A stretch of DNA of 38,071 nucleotides, taken from IMG/VR virus record IMGVR_UViG_3300042882_000131, positions 1 to 38,071 of that record; one strand, given 5' to 3'. The position numbers were made by a program, and so were the translations under genes. The notes beneath the pieces were generated by a model. That model did no database searches. It saw only the letters and a program-made list of their open reading frames with translations, and was not told where the DNA came from. Origin of the DNA: a virus. The first letter of the stretch is position 1. Each line of letters starts with the position of its first letter. This document shows, in pieces, positions 1 through 38,000 of this stretch.

Positions 1-1077
1 AGCAAAGCCTTAGAAGCCACTCAAGGAAAACACAGAAGCGGGTTAGCATTGGCCACCGGAGTTGGTAAGACTCTGGTTGGTCTATTGCATCTTGAAAGAG
101 AGTTTAGCCCACTGAAGAATATTCTTATAGTAGCTCCAAAGAAATCAATTATTGAAGAATGGAAGGTTCAGGCTGTTAAGTTTAGTAAAGAAGATTTGTT
201 AACTAATGTAACCTTCAGTACTTATCTAAGCTTGAATAAGAAGAATCCACAGGATTATGACATTGTCTATCTTGATGAGTGTCACAACTTATTAGATAAC
301 CATAGAGAATTCTTGGATAACTATTCAGGAATGATTCTAGGTCTTACCGGTACTCCACCCAAGAGAGAAGATTCTGATAAGGGTAGAATGGTCAGTGAAT
401 TCTGTCCAATGGTACATACCTATGTTACTGATGATGCTGTAGAAGCCAAGATTCTTAATGATTATAAGATTATTGTGCATGAACTGTATCTCAGTAATGA
501 TAAGAATGTGGCCGTAAAAACTAAAAGTGGTTCTTTTTTTACCTCTGAGAAAGCCAATTATCAATATTGGTGTGGAAGAGTAGAGAATGCGTCACCCGGT
601 AAATCTGTACAGATTGCCAGAATTATGCGTATGAAGGCTCTCATGGAGTATCCAACAAAAGAGAAATACACTAAGAGACTTCTTGATAGCATTAAGTCTA
701 AGTGTATCATTTTTGCTAATACCCAAGAGCAAGCAGATAGACTGTCTCAGCACAGTTATCATAGCACTAACCCTGAGTCTGCTACAAATTTAGAAGACTT
801 TAAGGTTGGTTCTATTACAAAACTATCTTGTGTACTACAGTTGAGTGAGGGTGTAAATATCCCAAACTTACGCCAAGGTATCATACTGCATGCATATGGT
901 AATGAAAGAAAGGCAGCACAGAGAATTGGCCGGCTATTGCGTCTGAACCCAGATGAGACTGCTACAGTACATATCTTATGTTATGTGGATACTGTAGATG
1001 ACAAATGGGTAAAAGAGGCTCTAGATGGCTATGATCAATCTAAAATTACATGGGTTGACTACAAAATTGCTCTGTGA
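1..1077 (+). CDS. SF2 DNA/RNA helicase, 5' end cut by the window edge
   Basis: Superfamily 2 ATP-dependent helicase, probably acting on phage DNA during replication, repair or recombination (UvsW/Ssl2-like Res-subunit type). The frame is open from base 1, so the true start lies outside the window; 358 codons are visible. Counting from base 1, Walker A (ATGVGKT) is at codons 18-24, preceded by a Q-motif-like stretch. The DEAD-box-type motif is DECH at about codons 92-95, followed by motif III-like GLTGTPP. The second RecA lobe shows a motif V-like stretch (LSEGVNIPNLRQG) and a motif VI with the arginine pattern QRIGRLLR. All core motifs are intact. Few residues appear to be missing, because Walker A normally lies near the N-terminus of the helicase core. 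The next gene follows after a 31-base AT-rich gap on the same strand. The helicase class is clear; its job in this phage is inferred. Confidence 0.9.
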   Translation, partial: SKALEATQGKHRSGLALATGVGKTLVGLLHLEREFSPLKNILIVAPKKSIIEEWKVQAVKFSKEDLLTNVTFSTYLSLNKKNPQDYDIVYLDECHNLLDNHREFLDNYSGMILGLTGTPPKREDSDKGRMVSEFCPMVHTYVTDDAVEAKILNDYKIIVHELYLSNDKNVAVKTKSGSFFTSEKANYQYWCGRVENASPGKSVQIARIMRMKALMEYPTKEKYTKRLLDSIKSKCIIFANTQEQADRLSQHSYHSTNPESATNLEDFKVGSITKLSCVLQLSEGVNIPNLRQGIILHAYGNERKAAQRIGRLLRLNPDETATVHILCYVDTVDDKWVKEALDGYDQSKITWVDYKIAL

Positions 1078-1108
1078 ATTATTAATTTTTGTAATTTGAG
1101 CACAAATT

Positions 1109-1363
1109 ATGGTTTTGGAAAAAACGCACAAACTCATATTACTCAATGACAGTGAGAATTCATATCTTTATGTTATGGCTTGTCTTGTCAAGGTATGTGG
1201 TCATGACTCTGTACAAGCAGAGCAATGTGCATTAATAACACATAATAAAGGTAAATGTCAAATAAAGTCTGGAGACTTTCTCAACATGTTTGAGATGAAA
1301 GCCTATCTCCAGGACTTAAGTCTTAAAGTAGAATTGGAAGATTATGTTAGTGATTTGTATTAA
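1109..1363 (+). CDS. ClpS-like adaptor protein
   Basis: Small 84-residue protein matching the ClpS core fold, the adaptor that brings N-degron substrates to the ClpA/ClpC unfoldase. The core begins with KLILLND (residues 8-14) like the KVILVNDD stretch of bacterial ClpS. It continues through a helix and the conserved HNKGK segment (45-49), and ends with a helix and a beta strand (LKVELE). Pocket residues Asn13, Asp14 and His45 match the substrate-binding Asn, Asp and His of ClpS. Only about 7 residues precede the core, whereas E. coli ClpS (106 residues) has an extension of roughly 25 that is needed to deliver substrates. It could therefore act as a competitor as easily as a working adaptor; that is inference. 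The gene overlaps the next one by 20 bases. Identification rests on motif pattern only. Confidence 0.75.
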   Translation: MVLEKTHKLILLNDSENSYLYVMACLVKVCGHDSVQAEQCALITHNKGKCQIKSGDFLNMFEMKAYLQDLSLKVELEDYVSDLY

Positions 1364-1601
1364 TGATGGTAACAGACCTAAACAGGTACCTGCTGAGAAG
1401 TGGATTGTTAAAGGTCAGATGTATACAGTAATTGGTACAACACAGATGAATCTACAAAGGAATAAAATTGGTCTTAAACTCAAGGAAATTGAGTTAGACC
1501 ATTCTTGTTTTCCCTATGAATACTTTGATGCTGATAGGTTCAAGATAGTTCAACCTGAGATTTCTGTTGCTAAACAAGAAACTGAAGAGTTTGCTATTTA
1601 A
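1344..1601 (+). CDS. Conserved small phage protein, unknown function
   Basis: An 85-residue protein without a recognised catalytic motif. The first 70 residues are mostly beta-strand in character: a short CINDGNRP start, a GQMYTVIG strand, and a LKEIEL strand followed by an aromatic patch (CFPYEYFDADRF). This suggests a small beta-barrel (SH3-like) fold. The last 15 residues are polar and probably disordered. The start overlaps the end of the ClpS-like gene by 20 bases, which implies coupled translation. I recall proteins of this general pattern in Bacteroidota phages and prophages but know no function. It could be a nucleic-acid or protein-binding accessory factor; nothing in the sequence decides this. 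Confidence 0.7.
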   Translation: MLVICINDGNRPKQVPAEKWIVKGQMYTVIGTTQMNLQRNKIGLKLKEIELDHSCFPYEYFDADRFKIVQPEISVAKQETEEFAI

Positions 1602-3806: not shown

Positions 3807-3880
3807 GGTTCCATAGCTCAATTGGATAGAGCACTGCCCTTCTAAGGCAGGGGTTATAGGTTCGACTCCTATTGGGATCA
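3807..3880 (+). tRNA. tRNA-Arg (anticodon UCU)
   Basis: A 74-base canonical cloverleaf. Acceptor: GGTTCCA (3807-3813) pairs with TGGGATC (3873-3879), using two G-U pairs. D arm: GCTC/GAGC with AATTGGATA loop. Anticodon arm: CTGCC/GGCAG around CTTCTAA, anticodon TCT. Variable GGGTT. T arm: ATAGG/CCTAT around TTCGACT. Discriminator A3880; the CCA end is not encoded. It decodes AGA (and AGG). AGA is visibly the dominant arginine codon in the surrounding phage genes, so the tRNA probably supports phage translation in the host. Confidence 0.95.
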
Positions 3881-3894
3881 CTAAATAAATAAGT

Positions 3895-12894: not shown

Positions 12895-13286
12895 TGATTT
12901 TAAACAGACAAGAAGCAAGTAATATCTTAAAGATGTTACAGTCAGAAGATCAAGACAACATGACTATAGCTTTCCAGGCTATTGATGCTCACACATTTAG
13001 TACAAAAGAAATTGGATATCTTATTTATTTCTACAAGTTTAGTAAATATGATAAGGCTGCTTGGGAAAATCATGCTCCGAAGTCTTACAAAATTTTGGAC
13101 AAGTTTGTAAATATGAATGAGCCTCTTACTTATGGTAAGGGTCTGACAATTATGATTGAAAAGAAAACTAAGCCTGAGATTATTGAGCTGTTCTTAGAAG
13201 GACATGTAGCTGAATTAACTCGGATGTTAGGAACTATGGGTTACCCCGTAGAGAGTTTAGAGATTAACATAAATCTAAAGAAATGA
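12894..13286 (+). CDS. Hypothetical protein with SEDxDN motif
   Basis: A 130-residue protein whose N-terminus contains NILKMLQSEDQDNMTIAFQAID (residues 10-31). It resembles the segments in the proteins at 4662-5108 and 15794-16939. The middle is aromatic and helical, and the last 40 residues form helices (KPEIIELFLEGHVAELTRML) and a strand. It starts with a one-base overlap (TGATG) and ends in an ATGA overlap with the metallopeptidase/VWA gene, so it may be functionally linked to the MoxR/VWA pair. No family recognised. Confidence 0.65.
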   Translation: MILNRQEASNILKMLQSEDQDNMTIAFQAIDAHTFSTKEIGYLIYFYKFSKYDKAAWENHAPKSYKILDKFVNMNEPLTYGKGLTIMIEKKTKPEIIELFLEGHVAELTRMLGTMGYPVESLEININLKK

Positions 13287-14509
13287 GTAAACATGATTCA
13301 CTGGGTAAAGCCAGCAAAGAGCTAATGTGGAAAGAACCCTTCTATGGTTTCTTTCTGATTATGCTAAACAAGATTTGGACTAATAGAGTTCCAACGGCAG
13401 GCGTAAGTAAGAATGGTATTAACTACCAACTTGCTATCAATGAAGATTTCTGGGAGAAATTACCAGAAGCACATCACATAGGTTTACTAAAGCATGAGTT
13501 ATTGCACATTGCTTTCTTCCACCTGAGTCAAGTATTTAAGTTTCCAGATCACAAGATGGCAAACATAGCTATGGACATGGAGATCAATCAGTACATTGAT
13601 GATGAATATTTACCTGAAGGTGGTATTGACATCAAAGACTATGATGACATGAATCTTGACCTTAAAGCTGGTTGCCGTTATTATTATGACAAGCTTAAAC
13701 AAGCTCAGGAAGAGAAAAAACAGAATGGTACATGTGGTTCTCCTAATATGGATAAACTACTGGATGGTCTAGAACAAGGACAATGTACCGTAGTTATAGG
13801 TGGTCCTGGCGGTGATAAAGAAGTAGAGATTCCAGAACATGCTACATGGGAAGAATTTGAAGATTTATCTGAAGCAGAGCAAAAGTTGATTGAACAACAA
13901 GTTCAAAGAATTCTTACTAATGCTGCAGAACAAACTGTAAAGAAGAGAGGTACTGTACCGGGTAATATCCAACAGCTACTTGACAAACTTCAAAATTTGG
14001 AAAAGCCTAAGTTTGACTGGCGTGGTTATGTCAGAAGATTCACAGGTACATCTACTAAAGTTTTTACAAAGAAGCTTAGAAGAAAAGAGAATAGAAGATA
14101 TTCTGACAATCCAGGTCTGAAGATTAAGATGAGACAACACATGTTGTTGGCCATTGATACTTCAGGTTCTGTAAGTGACACTGAACTCAAAGAGTTTATG
14201 GGTGAGATTTATCACATTCATAAGTGTGGGGTTGACGTTACTATTATCCAGTGTGATACAACAATTAAATCTATTGAACCGTTTGATCCCAAGAAAGATC
14301 TTACAGTTCATGGAAGAGGTGGGACTGAATTTGATCCCGTCCTAGAATATTATAATGCCAATCTAAGAAAGTATACAAGTCTTGTATATTTTACAGATGG
14401 TGAGTGTTACTCATCTGTGCAACCAAAAGCACCAGTATTATGGGTGCTGTCTGAACGGTCAAGTATGAATGATAGCCTTCCGGGCAAAGTGATTAAGTTA
14501 GAACTCTAA
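13283..14509 (+). CDS. DUF2201-type metallopeptidase/VWA protein
   Basis: A 408-residue two-domain protein. The N-terminal half carries the zinc-binding HELLH at residues 71-75 in a helix, followed by a His-rich, aromatic helix and conserved acidic residues (AMDMEINQYID), matching the putative metallopeptidase part of DUF2201. A charged linker (about 140-270) follows. The C-terminal part is a von Willebrand A-like domain with the MIDAS motif DTSGS (292-296), then GRGGTEFDPVL and FTDGEC, which complete the metal site. Such proteins pair with MoxR ATPases, here encoded 11 bases downstream. Together they may act as a chaperone-like or protein-remodelling machine; whether the HExxH site is active is not shown. 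Confidence 0.85.
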   Translation: MSKHDSLGKASKELMWKEPFYGFFLIMLNKIWTNRVPTAGVSKNGINYQLAINEDFWEKLPEAHHIGLLKHELLHIAFFHLSQVFKFPDHKMANIAMDMEINQYIDDEYLPEGGIDIKDYDDMNLDLKAGCRYYYDKLKQAQEEKKQNGTCGSPNMDKLLDGLEQGQCTVVIGGPGGDKEVEIPEHATWEEFEDLSEAEQKLIEQQVQRILTNAAEQTVKKRGTVPGNIQQLLDKLQNLEKPKFDWRGYVRRFTGTSTKVFTKKLRRKENRRYSDNPGLKIKMRQHMLLAIDTSGSVSDTELKEFMGEIYHIHKCGVDVTIIQCDTTIKSIEPFDPKKDLTVHGRGGTEFDPVLEYYNANLRKYTSLVYFTDGECYSSVQPKAPVLWVLSERSSMNDSLPGKVIKLEL

Positions 14510-14520
14510 AAAGAAAAGTT

Positions 14521-15696
14521 ATGAGCCAAGTACAATTGAATATTGATGAATTAAAAGGATTTTTGGGACACATGGTTAGAAATAACCAGTTCATTCAAGC
14601 TCAGGGCAAAGTTCCTGTAGCTGTAAATATTGAGGGTGATGCAGGTTTGGGTAAGACTTCTTCCCTAATGCAGCTCGCTGTTGAGATGGATATGGCTGTA
14701 ATTAAGCTAAACTTGAGCCAGATAGAAGAGTTGGGTGACCTTGTAGGTTTCCCATTCAAAGAATTTGAGATTGAGAATAAAGAAGGTGCAAAGAAATGGG
14801 TTCAAGAAACTTTACTTGAGACATATGTCAAGAATGGATTTAGACCTACTAGTCAAAGTAGAATGTCTCATGCTGCTCCTGAATGGATTCAGGGTCAACA
14901 AGAAGGTGGTTTCCTAATCCTTGATGACTACACTCGTGCAGACCAAAGATTTATGCAAGCCACTATGGAGTTAATAGACCGTCAAGAGTATATCTCTTGG
15001 AAGCTACCTAAGAACTGGCATATCGTCTTGACTACTAATCCAGACAATGGTGACTATAATGTAACTAGTCTTGACATTGCTCAGAAGACCAGATTTATCT
15101 CTACTGAGGTAAAATTCTGTGAGAAAGTGTGGGCACGTTGGGCAGAGTCTGTTGGTATTGACGGTAGATGTATCAACTTCTTGTTGATGAATCCTGAGAT
15201 AGTAACTACATCTGTTAATCCAAGAGCTATTACTACCTTCTTTAACTCTATCAGCTCTATTACTAAGTTTGAGGATGAGTTGCCAGTTATTCAAATGATT
15301 GGTGAAGGTTCTGTAGGTCCAGAAGTATCATCTTTGTTCACTATGTTCATTAATAATCAGATGGATAGAATCATTGCACCAAGTGACGTGATTAACAATC
15401 CTAATGAGGCTTATGTTATTGGTCAGTTGAACTCTGTAATTGGTACAGGAGATGATTTCCGTGCTGATATTTCTAGTGTGATGGCTACACGTTTGATCAA
15501 CTTTTGTTTGGTGCATTCACAAGATAAAGCAGTTCCAGATGCAATGATTAATCGTGTGATTAAACTACTTACAGACTGTGATTCATTCTCTGATGACTTG
15601 AAGTATTTCATGGTTAAAGAGATTGTCAATGGAAACAAAGCCAAATGGCAAAAACTAATGATGAACAGTGCGGTAGTCAAGATGGCTGTCAAGTAA
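14521..15696 (+). CDS. MoxR-type AAA+ ATPase
   Basis: A 391-residue AAA+ ATPase. Walker A is GDAGLGKT (39-46), Walker B FLILDD (131-136), and sensor 1 lies in TTNPDNGDY (171-179). Insert GDLVGFPFKEFE and segment HAAPEWI are typical of the MoxR group. A helical lid domain follows with the conserved stretch NPRAITTF. MoxR ATPases work with VWA-domain partners to fold or activate complexes; the partner gene lies directly upstream. Putative targets in a phage could be replication or host complexes, but this is inference. After the gene comes a 97-base interval containing two hairpins. Confidence 0.88.
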   Translation: MSQVQLNIDELKGFLGHMVRNNQFIQAQGKVPVAVNIEGDAGLGKTSSLMQLAVEMDMAVIKLNLSQIEELGDLVGFPFKEFEIENKEGAKKWVQETLLETYVKNGFRPTSQSRMSHAAPEWIQGQQEGGFLILDDYTRADQRFMQATMELIDRQEYISWKLPKNWHIVLTTNPDNGDYNVTSLDIAQKTRFISTEVKFCEKVWARWAESVGIDGRCINFLLMNPEIVTTSVNPRAITTFFNSISSITKFEDELPVIQMIGEGSVGPEVSSLFTMFINNQMDRIIAPSDVINNPNEAYVIGQLNSVIGTGDDFRADISSVMATRLINFCLVHSQDKAVPDAMINRVIKLLTDCDSFSDDLKYFMVKEIVNGNKAKWQKLMMNSAVVKMAVK

Positions 15697-28000: not shown

Positions 28001-29094
28001 CCCTCAATATCTTGTTCTGAACCTAGTATGTGGATTTGCTCAGGTTCAAATACTAATAACTCTTTAATATTACCAAGTTGATTGTTGACACTATCATATC
28101 CAAATTTTTCATTTAAAAGATCAGAAATGGATTTTGTAATAACAGGGAAATTGTTTGCAATATCTATATACTTTCTATTAGTGTTTCTGTTTAAAGTATC
28201 ACTATCAACACCCAACATTTCTGCAACTACACTATAATAACTTGAAGGCATAAATTTTGGATCTTTTTCCTTAAGCTTCTTTACTATGTCATTATAAGTC
28301 TCTCCGTATTTTTTAAATGTTTTTTTTACGTTTACTATAACAGGTATACTATACTTTCTTGACATAGAATATCCTTGGGACTTTCTTTTAAAGTCTTTCC
28401 ATGCTTCTTCCCATTGCTCTTCAGTAAAATTACGTTCTTCCCAATTAGAATAATCTGGATCAGTTAATATGTTATTTTTATCTTCAAGAAACTCTTCTCT
28501 AAGTTCTACTATACTAACATTTTTTCTAAAATAAAAGTAAAACCCATCTCCAAGAAATAAACCATCACCTTGATTAATTCTTTCTTTAAGAAATCCTTCA
28601 GATACTATATCCCCATTGTAAGCATCATGATAAACAATATCTTTTACAGTGCTTTCAGGAAAGATACTATTTAGATAAGCAGTGTATTGTTCTTGTGTAC
28701 CTATGGTAACTAGTTCTGGATTATTATCAAAGAGTTCTTTTACACCTTCTTTAGGCTCCTCTCTCATAAAAGAAGCTATGTCATCTTCATTAGAAGCTTC
28801 TCTCTTTTGCATGAGCAACTTAGTCTCCTGCTCATCAATTAACCCGTCTAATACTGAGAAGAGCAGTTCATTAGGTTCAGCTCTATATATAACATTCCCG
28901 TTTACTTTTTTGTCAGATACACTGTATAGTAGTTCACCTGGTGTAGGTGCTAGACCATAAGTTCTTTTGGCAAACTCAGTTAGTCTAAGATTAGCATCAT
29001 CAAATCTTTGGAAGTCTTGAATTACTCTTACGTCACTAATGATGTTTTCAGCCTTAAGCATATCAAGGCTGTTCATCTTACTACTACACTCCAT
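22093..29094 (-). CDS. Giant multi-domain virion-type protein, probable ejected cargo
   Basis: A 2333-residue protein, probably packaged and ejected with the genome, as large proteins next to the polymerase are in crAss-like phages. Domains in order: about 150-360 an ADP-ribosyltransferase-like region (DIVYHDAYNG ... GDGFYFYF; then VFEPEQIHILGSEQDI). About 398-475 is a GNAT-like region (SGVLKNAVIELG ... LTLVSD ... VWAELIM). A zincin-like segment follows with HEFSH at 567-571, possible third ligand Glu near 621, and a basic amphipathic helix (RNLLYAIKQALKGIFGR, 650-666). Long coiled-coil-rich helical regions follow. About 2013-2057 is a LysM repeat (IPGETLQEIADKYSM). At 2172-2188 is a membrane helix followed by DDDDE. 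Domain calls are from patterns and differ in certainty. The start overlaps the polymerase stop (TAATG). Confidence 0.85.
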   Translation of the reverse strand: MECSSKMNSLDMLKAENIISDVRVIQDFQRFDDANLRLTEFAKRTYGLAPTPGELLYSVSDKKVNGNVIYRAEPNELLFSVLDGLIDEQETKLLMQKREASNEDDIASFMREEPKEGVKELFDNNPELVTIGTQEQYTAYLNSIFPESTVKDIVYHDAYNGDIVSEGFLKERINQGDGLFLGDGFYFYFRKNVSIVELREEFLEDKNNILTDPDYSNWEERNFTEEQWEEAWKDFKRKSQGYSMSRKYSIPVIVNVKKTFKKYGETYNDIVKKLKEKDPKFMPSSYYSVVAEMLGVDSDTLNRNTNRKYIDIANNFPVITKSISDLLNEKFGYDSVNNQLGNIKELLVFEPEQIHILGSEQDIEGFRRFVNDPTGLNVFENIDLSQTEYYGENNESVPVMVDGIRVGDISYGLSGNYAVINFANIPDEYKKSGVLKNAVIELGETLKADGLTLVSDALDPLTNMVWAELIMDNQAHINEDLVYAYGEGPMNMGVKSDMDIERSAVLGTIFAQKLSESMKTPYQQITREEASRILKNSPIKYNGEPAFYYAGTVYFIEGGLTLDTALHEFSHPLIAAIRRDNSRLFDNLYDQLMGTDEGQMLKEKMARLYPELPEGSVLYKEEMLVHALSKRATNQIRQEIETDGFSRFIRNLLYAIKQALKGIFGRVDVADINANTTLDQLAQKVLTQSFEIASKMTDEEVAQFARAEKARINKLDNTSKDLAKNISADAMIAIINDFFFRNKEVLDVAKRVSKKSPQYKVLEKAMFENEGQRLIKDVQASVRKFQTVQISAKRSRAQIVDDTVDAEIRRLQELTLQATTVVYSFSVINNVMDNIYDSLNDLIRSGEYTSRQGEKLLAVFNSTVTAYGELIKDTDDLLVRDFAMKTDNPFAQMLSQTNTTIQRSKNLITKIKFERATEFYKEYTQYMNDFVNKELKQNLDQLSARLSEAEIDDLYERIVSNTITDEEINALKDKNLSAQGVGAFIDHFRKYRITEERIRGLLSGTEADASWFNRMLEAYTSSNDPIVGAFAIFVNDIETNAMQEVMDSSEVFRQKLEPLLKAVGYNPNKTRQILELTTFEDEVFHVNSKGEGERVKVYTLQNEHKGYRADRAELAYKFEEAKETGDRDKIKDSAAELRKLSIDYLYDMFLPEVYKADEVFDTPIGRLAWIDRQTALDNFAAETDKYSNEMERFESYSTAQAAWKGYQQLFELNYIDGTPKFDDPATGRYDLSKAMLLREYRDKNRKYYEFVEVPGSLERAYNEFANLLDAEGVKRDSPEWKKRMSEWDKQNIMLVYAQEYYDAKVKDIERLKVLQAKQNVAAKETFNLSEAYGDIFELIYAFKDEKNQPVPSELGVDRLKMVKELQQKINDFKNSYNSKLGLTREQLDELEAYREKVETNEKLSPAETKRFVKLSDMQSGGLTATEHAEMTGIFNRLSELSSKVPTEYYMDALNHYLVKMGLPEVKSADANDFINGDQIVELLEKDKKFSNWFTANHVTKTKYEKQKGKRKAKQSTVYERLMAYSVSVPSNPEHLVITKVKDRITGKDIEFRGKPNARHSKYQVKDEFRTIPLGANWDDYVGIYVDNEYQFLPRPYDLNDPNSAVSDKYVNQEYLAMKNANSSQFKLIELLKEFHHKNQEDLPRGSKLWNDMPRFGVSGTLESIQGGKYKNNLEVLRGSIRYQLDKSILNRKLKADEYESNANFDVNQQLVTTDLQGNQLSYIPISGLYNIPINEVSPNIIDNLMRYQTSAKMQTKLIDTVDLAKGILETLEDNPLKQPNKFDKKVAKLTGKLKPAGAGKSITYNRLEQFRALFERTYHGRQVVGVEESNPWLHKLINGMTKAAGRATLAVNIPSDLKNRYGQVMQNIIESTGGEYVSLQSYFTAQPWVKKTMIEWATTGIYTKGGQSLSVQLIQRFDPFFKAKEEHGRSITRTMAKDLLDGSWMYDFRKFGEMEAAMQLFGGFMHHKYLDMKTASGVVPIRYIDAWELDENGIITLKQGIDPEWGNREITHEYIPGETLQEIADKYSMSVEDLKAKNSIREASQLQEGQELIISKAMKFKQFRNQFQAVSRRLYGAYDSFGQAEGNKYLAYRLFFFMRKWATPGFVNRFGMDTKSGNVGGYRYDWALGKPTRGYYIGALAALKKMLTYKSDAYLYMTAQEKVDLKRTIGEGVSVLLAVLGILLLFGYDDDDEARWEKIRARSGPAFTPDFQLRGYMVNHMLFLMMGVKQETSTFMPIPGLGLNEYAKFIGVTSPAFGSTLKMYVKIIDDLASMLMGNDSAYYKKDTGPYSWQQEGAPKVITHFMATFGLSGRTGDAETLIKNMEKYSSRPPQ

Positions 29095-32000
29095 TATATC
29101 TTACATTTAAAGGGATTATTCTCCTCATCAAAATTAAACTCTATTTCAGCATCACTGATACCTTGTTCTTCCGCTATCATCTCTACAACTTCTGCATACA
29201 TGGTAGAACCCGGATTCACATATCCAAACTCCTCATAGAGTCTTTTACTTAAATATACAAATAATTCTTTAGGCATCAAGCGTACATCACCAAATCCAGT
29301 CTTAGGGAATGCTATCTTAACACCTCTAGACAAGTCATGTTGTATCTCCTCTATAGCATCCTCAAACAATCCTTTTACTGCAAAAAACGCCTTAGATTTT
29401 ACTCCTGTAAAGTTATCATTTAATGCTAAATTAGAAGTAGGGAAAAGTATAGTCATTGACTCATCAATCTTACTCAGTCTTGATTGACCTTCAAAGATCT
29501 TTGTTTTATCTGTCATCAAAGCTCTTGGTGAGTTAGCTACAAAAACAATATCTGGATGTTTAGCAACCATCTCCTTATATTCTTCTTCTGAATCTAAATA
29601 AATATAAAGATTAGGTGTATTGGTAGCTTTTATATAGTTGCTTCTTGGCTCCTTTTTCTTCCTTGCTTCTTTTGGACGTGGGATATTCTCAAGATCATTT
29701 ACAAAGAAAAGCTCTTTAAATCTGCTCTTCTCTGAATTAAGCATGTTGTTTTGATTAATAAACAGATTAAAAAATCTATTTAGTAAAGTATCAACTTTTT
29801 CTTCATCATCAAGAATATCCATGAACATGTCACCTTGATCTCTCATGAGGTCAGTATACAATTCTAAAGGAACTACATTATTGAAGTTCATCTTAGTTTT
29901 GTTAAGTCCAGTTTGCATCAAAGACATCAATGGCATTCTTGAGAAGAAATCACTTATTAATTTGTTTTCTTCTGGATCAGCTACTTTAACTACTCCTGGA
30001 TTAGCAAGGTCAGCAAAGTTCTTATTATAAAGATTAGACAAAGAGTTGGTAAAGTCCTTCTCATTCAGATACAAGTTAAATACACTTTCTGTAGAGTTAG
30101 TATCTAGCATTAGTCTGCTAAGTACCGGATATTCTTTTTTAAGTTTTCCTCCGTACACCTCTTCATCTCTTTGCATTAACTCTTTGAATTTAACAGCATA
30201 TGCATTCTCTGGATCTTTAAACATCTTATGAGGATTGTAAGTGTTATCCAGGGCCTTCATAGCTAGTATCTTCTCATAAGCATATCTTGCTTGAGCAACT
30301 TTATCTAACTCAGGTTTAGTAATCTTTATTCCTCTTAGCTCACTGTTAAATTCAGCAGTCTTACTAATCTCTTCTGTAGAGTAAATAGATCTCAGGTATT
30401 CTCTCTCAGCTACAAAAGCATAATACTCTGCTATGTTAGTAGTTCCATTAGACTTAAAGTATGATGAATCTAGTGCGTATAAGCCTCTATCTTCATATGA
30501 ACCCTCAAACTCAGAACCTTCTTTCCATAAACCATACTCAAAGTCTTGACGCAACTGCATCTCATCAATGTAAAGAGTGTCCTGACCTTGATCATTTTTC
30601 TTTACATAAGCACCAAACTTCAAGTTGTCTACTAGATTTACAGGAATTTTTGTGCTTGTGTTGTAACCTTTGTAAGCTGGACCTAGATTAAACTTTCTCA
30701 ATGCATTCTGAAGAAGCATACTCACTAGATCATTTCTAAAGGTTCCAATCATTTGTGCAATTTTCCCTGACCCAAAAGTATTGTCTACATTGCTTTTGAA
30801 CATTTTAAGATTTGTAACAATCCATTCAGATAAATTAGGGTGATATCTTAATGGCATCAAAGGTTGCAGCAAAGCTAGTATAAGATCATTATTATACATT
30901 GCACTAGTTACCGAGTCATACCTTAAGGCTGTTCTTAAATCTTGGTCAATCTTAGTATCATCTTCAAGATCTTTTCTTGCAGACTCAGTTAATTCTACAT
31001 CAGCACCCGTTGAATCAGTTTTTGTATCAGGGTTTGAGTTTATCTTTAATTTTGTAAGACCTTCAATCTGTTGTTCTATCTCTAGGAAGTGCAAGAACAT
31101 AAGTTGAGATAATCCACTATACTTTATTTTATTGGCAGCTGTCTGAGCCTTTTTTACTAGTTTTTCTAGTTCAGCTTCTAACGGCATTCTTCCGTTTTTG
31201 TCAAAAAATTCAGCTTCAATCTTACCCTGACGCACTTGAGAATTTTTAATAAGCTCTAACATTTCTGCCTCATTGAAGTTTCTATCTTTTTCTCCAAAGT
31301 ATTTATCTGAAAGAGCACGTCTCTGAGCATAGTATTTATCACTAGTTATAGGAGTATCAAATGCTTTTTTCATTACACGGTAAGCAGCATCCTTCTTTAC
31401 ATTGCTTTTTGAATCAGATTTTTTACCAAGTGGTTCAGCAAATGTACTATTACCTTGTCTTTGTTCTTTTACATACTCTCTAACTAGTGGTTGTGAAACA
31501 AAGAAGATAGCTTCTTTTACAGGTACCCCAGCTTTAATTAGGTATAGCGTTGTTGAAGCAAGCTCATAGTTTCCTTGGATAAAGAAGATCCATGCATCTT
31601 TCTCAACATCCACCCATCCATTGATAGACTGGGAGAACAAGTCAGCTACTTTGTGTACATTATCTACATCATATCTACTAGCTATTGATATTACTTCATC
31701 ACCATCTTTATTAATTGTAGTGTGGTGTCTAAGGAGTAACTCCATCTTTCTTGGTGTCTTACTTTTACCCTGCAGGTATGTAGCCGGCATCTTAGCATCT
31801 AATGAATTCATGATTACATTAAATGTGTTTTCTATAGCTCCAAGACCAAGGGTTTTCTTACCAATCTCATTAGACTCATGCTTGTATATGTTGTATCCAG
31901 ATTCTAGAACACGCGTAGGACTAATGACCTTTTTAACTGTCTTTACTCCATTCTCATCTACGTTTTTGTAGTTTGGTGAATCAGAAGACATGTTCTTATA

Positions 32001-35000
32001 AGGGTCATACTCCATCACATATTGAGCAAGCTCATCTGCAATTGGCTTTAGAATATAAGTACCGTTTGGTCTAATCAATGAAGGGTAGTTCTGTGGAAGC
32101 TCAAGAATGTTTTTGATGTCTTCTATGAGTTCATTCTCTAATGCAGCTTTCTGAGCTTTGATAATCTCAGTGTGAGACTCTTTATTCTTTCTAGCTTCAG
32201 CTACGGCATCTTTTAGAATCTGAATGCTCTCTTCTTTAGTTTTACCTTTTTTAAGTAGTCTACCTTTTACAGTACCGTCCTCAGATATGTTGGGCATAAA
32301 CGTAGTCAACTTATCAATATCAAAGTCAGCTCCTGATTTAGCAACAATCTCAGATGGTGGTATAATAATATTCCCGGCTTCTGGTGGAAGGAAGTGATAC
32401 ACCTCCATAAATTCCATAGAGTTAAGACCCTGTACTGGAATTCTCACAGCAGCCATAGTTACTGCTTGTCTGTTAGTACCTTTATCTAACCAAGAGTCTT
32501 CTTTAATCATTTCATTGAGACGGTCAATAGTACCAATCTCTTCTCCATCATTATGCTCTAGGTTCAACAGATAGTTAAAGTCACCTTGTAAGGCAACCAT
32601 AACTTTCATAGCTGCTGTAGTACCGTCTGTTGTTGTAGTAACTTTTGGTTTTCTACCTGCAATGACATCTTTTAGATACTGTATCTCATCTCTAAGAGCT
32701 TGTTGATGGGTAGGAGTCCAATAAGCTGACTGTTCCTCTTGTATCCTTTCTTTAGTTTTTAAAGCTGCCTTTAGACTTTCCTTACTTGCATTTTTGTATA
32801 ATGCATCAAGGTCAATAATTTTTCTATGGTATGTTGGCAGGAAGTTAGACCCTTTGTATTTTTTCTTCTGTGCTTCTGTAGCATTAGTAAGATCAGCAAT
32901 AGGACTTCCAAACACTCCTTCATACATAGCAGCAGATACCTGAACCAATGGCTCACCTTTTACTTTCTGCTTGATGATTTTCTTGTTGATTACAGATAGT
33001 AACAACTTCTCAATCTTCGGTGCTTCAGGGTGTAGTGATAAGTCATTTCTCAATGAACCATCTTCAGTTACATCTATAAAGCCTTCAATCAAGTGGTCAC
33101 CCAATGTGTCATCTCTCTCAAGTTCCTGGCGAATAAGTTCAGCTAGTTTTTCTGTGCTCTTTTTATCTCTAGGTGTATAGACAAGTTTACCATCTACGGT
33201 CTTCTCATCATAACCAATCTTCTCTAGTAATTCTACTTTAAGAATATTAGTGTACTCAAAGACATTATCAATGTAGCGCTTTACTTTATCACTAGTAATC
33301 TGAGTCTCATCAGTAGACTGTATTACACCTCTCTCATAAAGACCCTCAAGGATCAACTTACGTAACTGAGTAGAGAAGATAGACTTCTCTTTATATGTAC
33401 TGTTAAGTTCTGTCTGATTCTTCAAGAACTCAGAGAATACTTTATTTACTGTAAACTTAGAGTCTTTAATTAGATCACCATTTTCATCAAAGATAGTATC
33501 ACCCTTTCCGTCTGGTGCAATGTGTCCTACTTTAGAACCTGACTGAAAGACTACATAGTCTACATTGTCCTTCATCATCTTGTCATGTAGCGCAGATAGT
33601 TTTGCTGATCCTGTTACAGAAGGAATAAGTGGGGCTAATGAGAACTTATGGAATGATGTAACAGACAAACCTTTTGTGTCTATGTTTCCAAAGTACTGTA
33701 ACTTATAAGGTGGGAAGTATTCAATGATATCTTCTACTGATAGCTTATCACCGTTTACAATTCTTTTATATAGCTCTTCTTGTTCATCAGTCCAGTTACC
33801 CTCCAAAGTCTTAAGCATGCGGTAAGACTCTAGAGTAACATGTCCCTGACCATCACCTTCTTCCATGCCTAAGTATGCCTTAGCTTCAGTTTCTGAAAGC
33901 TTCTTAGCATAGTCTTTTTTGTTCTTAATAGTCTTGTTATCCTTAAGACGGGTTAAGATATCTTGATAAAGAGTTTCTTTGTACTCATCATACATGATTG
34001 AGTTAAGCGTTTTCTCTTTAATGATAGCTGTGTGTATTCTACCATCATAGTTTCTAATGTTATACCCTTTCTTCTGAGCATAAAGTCTAGGGAAGAGTGA
34101 GCTGTTGATATAGTCTCTTGCTCTTTGGTCAGCTCTAAAACCTCTTCCTGGAGCTGTCATACCTGCATTACGCTTATGGAACTCTTCTTTCTCATGGTTA
34201 TACTGAGCTAAGTCTCCGTAAGTAAGAATCACTGACTCATAGTTATGAATCCAAGAGTTGTATGTATAGGCTTTAATTAAGATTTCATCAACTTGCTTTC
34301 TTGTCAAACCTTCTTGTGTAGCAACCTCAGTCAAAGCTGGATCAACATATCTAGCTTTACTTAAAACATCTAGATTGATTTTAGTTTGCTTGTCAAAATA
34401 GTTATCTACATCATTTTTTAAAGCTTGATACAGATCATCATTTTCATCTAAAGCCTCAAGTAAATCTCCATCTATATCATAAAGCATTTCTTTAGTGTCT
34501 TCAGTAAGAACATCATCAAATGCTGTAAATACTTCACCTGCCATTACAATAGTCCCGTCTTTCTTTCTGACTTTTCTATTGTAACCAGCCCAGTTCTTCA
34601 TCTGCAATTCTGTATCTGTGATACTATCATCTTTGAGATTAGCTTTAAATCTCTGGATTCTTTCAAGCTCACCAGCTACATAACCTTTGATAATATCAAA
34701 TGCTTCTAGTTCACCCTCACCTCTACGGGCAGGACGGAAATCAGCAATGTCTACATAAAGATAGTCTGTTTCTTTTCCTGGATTATCAAAGTTAGCAGTG
34801 TCTACTTTTCTAGCTCTGATACCTTGAGCCATAGACTTAGATGCGTGACGCATGAACTCCTGAACACCACGTAACAACATAGTATTCATTTCTTGTAGGA
34901 ACTTAGTAGTTGCATCAGCAGAACTTGTAGATACACCATCTTCTGGAGTTAAGCTACCTTCTTCTAATACCTGAGTACCCGCTACGTTGATTACTTCTAG

Positions 35001-38000
35001 CTCATTAAATCCTTCATCACTTACTCTTCTTCTCTCTCCAAACTTGCTATTCATTGGATCCATATAGAAGATAGAGTTCATATTAACACTATGCTTGATA
35101 TGTGGATTGTTTGAATCTCTCAACCAACGCATGTGTCTGAAGTCACCATCTACATCAAACTCTTGCTCATCTTCATCAATCAGATACTTAAAGCTTTTTG
35201 CCTTGTTTAGGGCACCCATTGTACGGGTAAGTGTACTGTCTAAGAAGTGTTCCCAAACACGGTTTCTCTCAGGACTAAGTACACTAAAGTTAGCATAGTT
35301 ATCAGAGAACTTAATGTTTATCTCAGCTAATTCTCTTAGTCTTGTTCTTACATCCTCTGCATTCTCAGCACTCTCTCTTAAGTCTTCAGGTAAACCATCC
35401 ATCAAGTACTTAATAGGATTACGGCTGAACTCTTTAGCAGCTGCTACTTTTTTAAGATCATCTGACTTAGCAGCTTTGTTGATCATCTTGAGCAAGCTGA
35501 AGATATAATCTACTCCATACACTTTTGCAAAACCAGACTTTTCCATCATAGCGCTGATCTCAGCACTTGTTCTATCTAAGGTAATTCCAAGAGCTTCAAG
35601 AAACTCAAATGATCTTTTAAAATCAAATTTATCACCTTTACTAAATTCAGAAATAATCAAATCAATGTCTAATATGTTTGATAACTTATCCTTGGTGATA
35701 AAATTATTAGGAGAAGGGTCAGCTAGTTGGAAGTTAGCAGACCATACTTTGAATACAGCATAAACATCAAAGTTTGCATTTACTATACTAGATGAGAACT
35801 CTGTTTTATCAGGGATACCTTCCTCTAATGAAGCTACTTGTCTTTTAGTAATGTTCAATTGTACATATGGGATTCTTGGCTTTTTAAAATCTTGCCAAAA
35901 TCTTGTTGTAGTATTGAACTCAGCTGTACTTTTATAGGATTCGCTTGATAGAGGATTATGTAACATCTCCATCAGTTGGTTAAACTCTGGATAGTTTTTT
36001 GAATATTCCATCAGCTTAACATAGATTTCCTCATCAGTGAGTGAACCGGCAAGTGTTCTTGCTAGCTTATTCCACATGATATCTTTAGACTCAAGGATAT
36101 CAAAACCTAGTTTATCCTGTACTCTAGTAAAGGTACCGTCTTTATTTTTGTCTACTTTGAAGATACTTGAGATAAGCATTAGGGTATCTTCTGAAGCTAG
36201 TTCTTTAGATGATTTAGTATTACCTTCTGTAGATGGGATAATCTGACCTACAGAATCTATAGCAGCTTCATCTTCATCTACTTCTACATAGGTATCTTTT
36301 AATACATTAAATCTTGTGTTATTAATATGGTAAGCAACAAGACCTTTCTTTTCTTTACCTTTTAGAGAAATATCTATGTCTCCAAAATTGTCTACCATTT
36401 TGCTTAAGAGCAAGACATTATCAGAAAGTACAGCTTGAGTATCTAGATCTGGAGTATCACTTTGTCTATTCTCAGAAGCTAGTTCTTTGAGTTCTCTTTG
36501 AGCTATGTCTCTTTTAAGTATTAGCCTTTCAAGTATTTTTGCATAAGTTTTTTCTCTATTTAAACCATCATTCAAAATTCTTGAAACACCAGCTGTTGTT
36601 TTAAAATACGCGTTATAGTCTAAGAAAACATCCGCCATGATACTATCCATTGCATCTACGGCTCTCTTAGAGTCATCAATGGTAAATGGACTGTAGTTTT
36701 TACTTTCAGATTTTATAACTTCAATAGCTTTAGATCTGTTGAGTACATTGAACTCAGGCATTACATTTTCTATAGCCGGAGTAAGATGGTTGATGTCACC
36801 TTTGTACAATGCATCAAAGTATCCTTTTACTTCAGCTATGTCTCTTGGTCTAGTGAGGTCTCTCTTTGTAAGCTTACCAAATAGTAATCTTATGGCTCTT
36901 GCAATTCTATCAAAGATTCTTCCAATGATACCTTTAGGCTTAGTCTTACCAAGCATGAAGTCTCTGAAGTCTTCCGCTATTGCTTCTTCTATATCTATGA
37001 ATTCTGCATTAGCCCACTTAGGAGACTTTCTCATTGCTTCATATAGTGCCGTCTTCTCATCTATACTCAAGTACAACTGAGAGAATGCATGCCATGCTTC
37101 GTGATAAAGGTCAACAGATGTACCACCATCAGCTTGATTTAATGTAATACCTGCACGTGACCATGTTGCAAATGCATCAGAGTTTAGTATCTCAGTAATT
37201 ACAGTAACAGGAATAAGCAGGTTACCCTCTTTATCTTTTGCTGTAGACAAAGGGGAATTACTCCACCAGTTGTCAGCTCTCTTTTTATCCGCTTCAGTAA
37301 CAAAGTATTTATCAAAGAAAGATGCTACACTCATTGATCTATTAAAGCCACTGAAATTAATAGCACTCTCACTTAATATTTTTCTGTCTTCCTCTGAAAG
37401 AACTTCTTTTGTTTTAGCAACCGTTTTAGCTGCAGTTTTTGATGGAGTTGCTTTAGTCTTAAATCTAGCCTTGAACTTAGTTTCCTTTGAACGTCTATCT
37501 GGGGCAGCCTTTTTACCTTTAGCAAACTTATTTACAGGCTTAGACATTTCTTTAGTCCACCAATCTTTTGGTGCTACTACTTTAGTCTCAAGACCTAATC
37601 TAGCAGCAGCTTTTGTAGCAGCTTCTTCAATACCTGTCTGACCTGTGGTAATAACATTTGTAATTTCTAATTTAAGATTACTAGATTCTACAACAGCTTT
37701 AAGAGTATTGTACATAAAATTATCTAGTACATCTTGAGTATAACCTTTTAGTGCAGTAATATCTCCACCTGTAATAGTAAGCACTCCGCCTGGGGATGCA
37801 TTAATTTGAATTACTAGATTATTAATAGCAGCTGGTGTTAATTCAAGCTTCCCACCACGTTTACTAAAGGTTTGAGGAAAGTATGGTTTACCAGTGCTAT
37901 CTACTGCATTCTGTGTAACTGTATTAGAACCACCTGTAACATTTGCAGGATTGAATGCTAGCACTAAGTCTGCCATAGCAATTACAGCTTGCTTTACTGG

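Follow-up and report, generated by a model that had tools for sequence, protein, structure and literature searches.

ClpS proteins of jumbo phages have already been described (PMC7824862, PMC6102473), and in E. coli the N-terminal extension (NTE) of ClpS enters the ClpA channel, delivery being inhibited when the NTE is blocked (PMC9663308). A small open reading frame (ORF) in the window, by which the whole analyzed stretch of 38,071 nucleotides is meant, raises the question of what a phage may do with a ClpS core that has no such extension. A ClpS-like ORF had been placed there by a first-pass annotation, and both its position and its family were right:

1109..1363, plus strand: NTE-less ClpS-like protein of 84 aa (PF02617, 45 bits; AF2 pLDDT 93; ClpS matches in the PDB)

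PF02617 (ClpS) was the sole Pfam family of the 84-aa product (E 9.5e-12, 45 bits against a cut-off of 23), while NCBIfam ClpS models matched weakly, far under their equivalog cut-offs, and a PHROG search with the protein gave no match. The AF2 model, made with a 61-sequence alignment, reached pLDDT 93.3, and its elements (strand 7-12, helices 19-30 and 34-47, strand 49-55, helix 57-69, and strand 74-78) give the predicted order E-H-H-E-H-E, which is the ClpS topology. Foldseek against the PDB at E <= 0.001 returned 38 chains, all of them ClpS entries or the Plasmodium ClpS-domain protein 4o2x, and VIA-align superposed Arabidopsis ClpS1 (AtClpS1) with Z 15.5 and rmsd 0.9 over 78 residues, so that ClpS topped both structure comparisons. 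The ClpS fold, for which the annotation had proposed structure prediction as a check, was thus obtained, and the ORF is a ClpS homolog well above chance. The core is 40-52% identical to cellular ClpS of Bacteroidota and has the C-x-H and QAEQC motifs in common with it. In the phage collection searched, the only matches of the protein were megaphage copies (LR745206, LR756502, and LR756504). In BFVD, proteins of the gut crAss-like phages cr56_1, cr50_1, cr10_1, and cr1_1 show a weak fold likeness to ClpS or to the C-terminal domain of ribosomal L7/L12 (Foldseek E from about 0.008 up to 0.1).

The absence of the extension follows from the reading frame.

1097..1099, plus strand: in-frame stop TGA that rules out a longer N terminus (read from the sequence; the 3-codon open stretch that follows it is also present in the near-identical locus L001)

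Between this stop and the ATG at 1109 lie three codons, none of them ATG, GTG, or TTG, and a longer N terminus from an upstream or non-ATG start is therefore excluded in the window. Strand 1 of the AF2 model starts at residue 7, with 6 residues ahead of it, compared to about 26 ahead of the core in E. coli ClpS, and the annotation's description of about 7 residues before the core and a missing extension was borne out. In 106 related loci with short ClpS fetched from IMG/VR, an ATG stood exactly 12 residues ahead of the pocket Asn in 104 and 11 residues ahead in one, the remaining locus having no ATG there. A second sample of 80 loci, which was fetched through the neighbor gene and partly overlaps the first, had the ATG 11-12 residues ahead of the Asn in 77. 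From this constant position, the start is fixed while the remaining protein diverges to <50% identity. No ATG, GTG, or TTG was found at least 8 codons upstream in 76 of the 106 related loci, and the upstream starts of the others seem to belong to frames that extend across the helicase gene end. In 42 loci of cellular Bacteroidota ClpS, no Met was present 8-18 residues ahead of the Asn, the nearest being at least 25 residues away where found, and in a second phage ClpS group (69 loci from terminase-bearing phages and ~640-kb megaphages) the Met was mostly 24-29 residues before it. The feature that defines the E. coli mode of action, an NTE entering the unfoldase channel, is absent from the window protein and clade-wide. 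An AT-rich motif recurs just ahead of the clpS start (window 1080-1108), reading TTTTTGTAATTTGAG here and TTTTTCGTATATTAGAAT in other loci, and is possibly a phage promoter or a leaderless start.

The surroundings of the gene tell in which phages the short form occurs.

1..1077, plus strand: SF2 DNA helicase directly upstream of clpS, cut by the window start (PHROG 16 DNA helicase, E 9e-35; ResIII/Helicase_C)
1344..1601, plus strand: 85-aa ORF overlapping the clpS 3' end by 20 nt (present in 105/107 loci, and in 80/80 in the reverse search; AF2 pLDDT 83)
29094..37976, minus strand: giant ORF related to the catalytic subunit of the crAss-like virion RNA polymerase (tblastn to phi14:2 g066 and cr108_1)

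The block of helicase, clpS, and 85-aa ORF is conserved, with the helicase in 99 and the third gene in 105 of 107 loci. The giant ORF matched phi14:2 g066 and gut crAss-like phages in partial stretches at about 23-35% identity (tblastn), and a relative of it was detected in 23 of 26 tested long records with short ClpS, a 24th match being L127, which carries a long ClpS. On the basis of this giant virion RNA polymerase (vRNAP), the window and the short ClpS are assigned to a crAss-like phage lineage. The clpS gene sits in a replication module with helicase, UDG, primase, and polymerase B genes. As the vRNAP of Crassvirales drives early and replication genes (PMC10136315), early or middle expression of clpS is likely from its position. 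The window also carries a tRNA-Arg (TCT) gene at 3807-3881 and, at 13283-15696, a DUF2201 metallopeptidase-like/VWA protein followed by an ORF (14521-15696) that by eye resembles a MoxR-type AAA ATPase.

All short forms fell into one clade of the ClpS tree (SH-aLRT 98, 78 columns). The same helicase gene lies upstream of a long ClpS in the crAss-like phages L127/L239, L242, and L245 and in the fragments L240 and L241, which also have the vRNAP relative, and there at least 24 residues precede the Asn of an intact Asn-Asp-Asp...His pocket. The helicase tree, with only three long rows, split the short-ClpS phages from the long-ClpS crAss-like phages L127, L242, and L245 (SH-aLRT 97). On these trees the simplest history would be one NTE loss at the base of the lineage, inherited with the neighbor genes and followed by pocket changes; the 78-column ClpS tree does not tell whether the short clade derives from the long crAss-like ClpS or was captured independently from a host. 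The short clpS genes had a median dN/dS of 0.25, indicating purifying selection, a value taken over whole genes, to whose purifying signal the 20-nt overlap with the next gene adds slightly. Decay of a host clpS after its capture, with no function left, would fit the lost NTE and the loss of pocket residues in many members, but a pseudogene is ruled against by this dN/dS, and length and start are near-constant in >100 loci at a conserved genome position. We regard such a relic as very improbable.

In the pocket, the substrate alpha-amino group is held in Caulobacter ClpS by Asn47, Asp49, and His79, with Asp48 among the pocket-lining residues (PMC12493166).

1145..1153, plus strand: codons of Asn13-Asp14-Ser15, corresponding to Caulobacter Asn47-Asp48-Asp49 (alignment with E. 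coli ClpS and class tallies; roles from PMC12493166)
1163..1165, plus strand: Tyr19 at the gatekeeper position, E. coli Met40 (alignment)
1241..1243, plus strand: retained His45, corresponding to Caulobacter His79 and E. coli His66 (alignment)

The residues that the annotation listed as a preserved N-degron pocket, Asn13, Asp14, and His45, are all present; its Asp14, however, occupies the Asp48 position, and the true alpha-amino contact, Asp49, is replaced by Ser15. The gatekeeper was Phe in 38 of 39 sampled Bacteroidota cellular cores. Across 70 distinct short forms, the Asn at position 47 and the Asp at position 48 were invariant (70/70), Asp was found at position 49 in 44, and Asp, Asn, or Glu stood instead of His at position 79 in 17. 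The complete Asn/Asp/His set was intact in 35/70 distinct short cores versus 31/32 long phage cores and 34/39 cellular cores. On a tree built without the two pocket columns, the short clade required a minimum of 12 changes at the Asp49 position and 5 at His79, compared to 1 and 0 in the long phage forms; these counts are a contrast and not a rate test, since the groups are unequal in sample size and depth and many branchings have weak support. Ser15, or the Asp at the His position in other members, might weaken N-terminus binding. A reading of the pocket as lost was tempered by Mycolicibacterium ClpS, which has DDP for NDD and was solved with Phe-Ala and Trp-Ser dipeptides, and by human UBR1 and UBR2, which align with Glu at the Asp49 place and Asp at the His79 place. 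As judged from the alignments, the pocket of the short ClpS is remodeled and not simply kept.

The 85-aa neighbor is a constant companion, with clpS directly upstream of it in all 80 loci fetched through the neighbor gene. Its product is small and beta-rich, weakly SH3-like with a disordered acidic C-terminal tail in the AF2 model, and has C, P, W, and RF residues that do not vary; in many relatives the tail closes with D-L-E-L-V/I. No Pfam family and no phage-collection match were found for it, and its structure matches were SH3-like and weak (Foldseek E >= 0.1; best Z 5.8, rmsd 2.3, 54 aligned), so that on the modeled structure a relationship to YccV/HspQ or ClpF is not supported. A relative of the gene also occurs in the long-ClpS crAss-like phages, there not adjacent to clpS. 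The short ClpS itself ends in a conserved tail, [S/G]-[D/N/H/Y]-[M/L]-[Y/H], which is absent from cells and whose last residues in the window protein are of low confidence in AF2. This tail was considered as a docking or degron motif replacing the NTE and set aside, as its codons are constrained by the 20-nt overlap, in 92 of 107 loci through the conserved V-I-C-I-D start of the next ORF. It is also conceivable, if quite improbable in our estimate, that ClpS core and neighbor form two halves of one adaptor, the acidic tail of the neighbor replacing the lost bait and engaging the unfoldase in trans.

A phage-borne Clp machine or Aat (Leu/Phe transferase) as the partner was rejected, as searches of the window and of 14 additional short-ClpS records, which may be incomplete, revealed neither Clp_N nor ClpP nor Aat. 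The partner is thus most likely the host's, and the short ClpS most likely acts on host machinery. Clp_N unfoldases were found in the four Bacteroidota genomes examined, and 238 of 247 sampled Bacteroidota genomes had a ClpS of their own. In the control genome of Bacteroides ihuae, ClpS was not found, and Clp_N and ClpP were present. A 94-kb IMG/VR record classed as viral (L190, 3300029822_000002) carries an NTE-bearing ClpS, a ClpA-like unfoldase close by, and ClpP; this is a phage or element equipped with a complete Clp set, or else a bacterial contig that was misclassified.

The reading we prefer, tentatively and at a little under even confidence, is that the window encodes a ClpS-type N-recognin core whose NTE disappeared in a single event at the base of one crAss-like lineage and which captures bulky N termini, docks on the host unfoldase, or both, holding its cargo without delivering it. 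The clpS product would be made alongside the replication-module genes, capture proteins with bulky N-terminal residues in its somewhat remodeled pocket, and/or dock on the Clp unfoldase (ClpC/ClpA type) of the Bacteroidota host. As the unfoldase pore could not pull on a phage ClpS that has no NTE, the cargo would be held and not handed over, and the host ClpS would be outcompeted. The phage would then probably hold or redirect host proteins rather than feed the protease. N-terminus binding, unfoldase docking, nondelivery, and stability of the short form are what we infer in this reading. In E. coli, the NTE is reported to moderate ClpA ATPase as well as ssrA selectivity, and ClpS with a truncated NTE is no longer degraded by ClpAP in vivo (PMC12974527), a fate that the phage protein, for want of an NTE, should escape as well. 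The NTE roles known in E. coli ClpAP (PMC9663308, PMC12974527), from which Bacteroidota ClpC may differ, thus predict a stable protein that does not deliver, causes little general inhibition, and competes with host ClpS; binding without delivery fits both that work (PMC9663308) and the conserved clade-wide NTE loss. The annotation had suggested that the phage may block or redirect host proteolysis. A general block is not predicted by the E. coli work, since moderation of ClpA ATPase and ssrA selectivity is credited to the NTE itself (PMC12974527), and interference from a form that lacks it should fall chiefly on the N-degron branch; redirected specificity stands, nearly as likely as blocking given the repeated pocket changes in the clade.

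Retargeted delivery, with or without bait in trans, is a serious rival, possible but somewhat less probable in our judgment than holding. Here the short ClpS would be a delivering adaptor of changed specificity that destroys chosen host proteins, either because the Bacteroidota Clp machine can do without an NTE on it or because an NTE-like bait comes in trans, from host ClpS bound to the same hexamer or from the neighbor protein. Repeated pocket changes (at least 12 at the Asp49 position and 5 at the His) under purifying selection are as expected for retargeting, and the neighbor ORF with its disordered acidic tail would be a constant partner (80/80 loci), as chloroplast ClpS1 works with a second adaptor, ClpF (PMC11371169); host-directed degradation has also been proposed for jumbo-phage ClpS (PMC7824862). 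The NTE is kept, however, in cells, megaphages, and the long-ClpS crAss-like phages, where it appears to matter for ClpS function, and in the last of these the relative of the neighbor gene is separated from clpS.

More unlikely still is a ClpS core working outside the Clp pathway, which would bind only protein N termini or peptides, for example shielding phage or host proteins, and would not dock. UBR-type ClpS domains bind N termini outside Clp systems and provide a precedent, and the lost NTE together with the invariant pocket Asn and first Asp (70/70) would suit such a binder. The E. coli ClpA-contact residues Glu79, Glu82, and Lys84 are not confidently recognizable either, the register of helix 3 relative to E. 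coli varying between alignments, so that the sequence gives docking no support, but the ClpS of Bacteroidota hosts deviates at the same residues and their absence says little.

Against known systems, the NTE-less clade stands apart in several respects. In cellular ClpS of Bacteroidota the Asn lies at least 25 residues from the Met in a mostly intact Asn/Asp/His set (34/39 cores), compared to Asn13 and Ser15 in the window. The jumbo-phage proteins (Atu_ph07, PA5oct, Phosso, and AMM43882.1) and the megaphage proteins are phage-borne like that of the window, but ClpS of Atu_ph07, PA5oct, Phosso, LR745206, LR756502, and LR756504 keeps the NTE, and the megaphage group, unlike the short clade, keeps the pocket set in 31 of 32 distinct cores. 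The ClpS-like AUS02627.1 of Vibrio phage 2.275.O is also NTE-less, with its Asn at 13, an Asp at the pocket His, and a Shine-Dalgarno-like GAGGAG just upstream of its start; it differs in its longer C terminus and in coming from an unrelated phage and host, and looks like an independent NTE-less case. Leptospira ClpS1 has natural pocket His-to-Asp and Met-to-Tyr replacements, and in vitro it binds LinClpA and inhibits its ATPase (PMC12493166); it resembles the short forms in its pocket changes and differs from the NTE-less window protein by a 22-residue N-domain. No literature linking ClpS with crAss-like phages was found in a search whose coverage left out most subscription literature. While phage ClpS as such is known, an NTE-less, pocket-variable ClpS clade with natural NTE-bearing counterparts appears to be undescribed.

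Crassvirales are widespread phages of Bacteroidota, especially in the mammalian gut (PMC10136315). If the two-part adaptor were true, the phage could time the delivery of cargo through the partner and change the specificity of the pocket freely. The crAss-like pairs with and without the NTE, in which ClpS lies downstream of the same helicase gene and is directly comparable, amount to a natural NTE-deletion experiment. Through such pairs it can be tested whether phage N-degron adaptors deliver, shield, or compete, and how important the NTE is beyond E. coli-type ClpAP.
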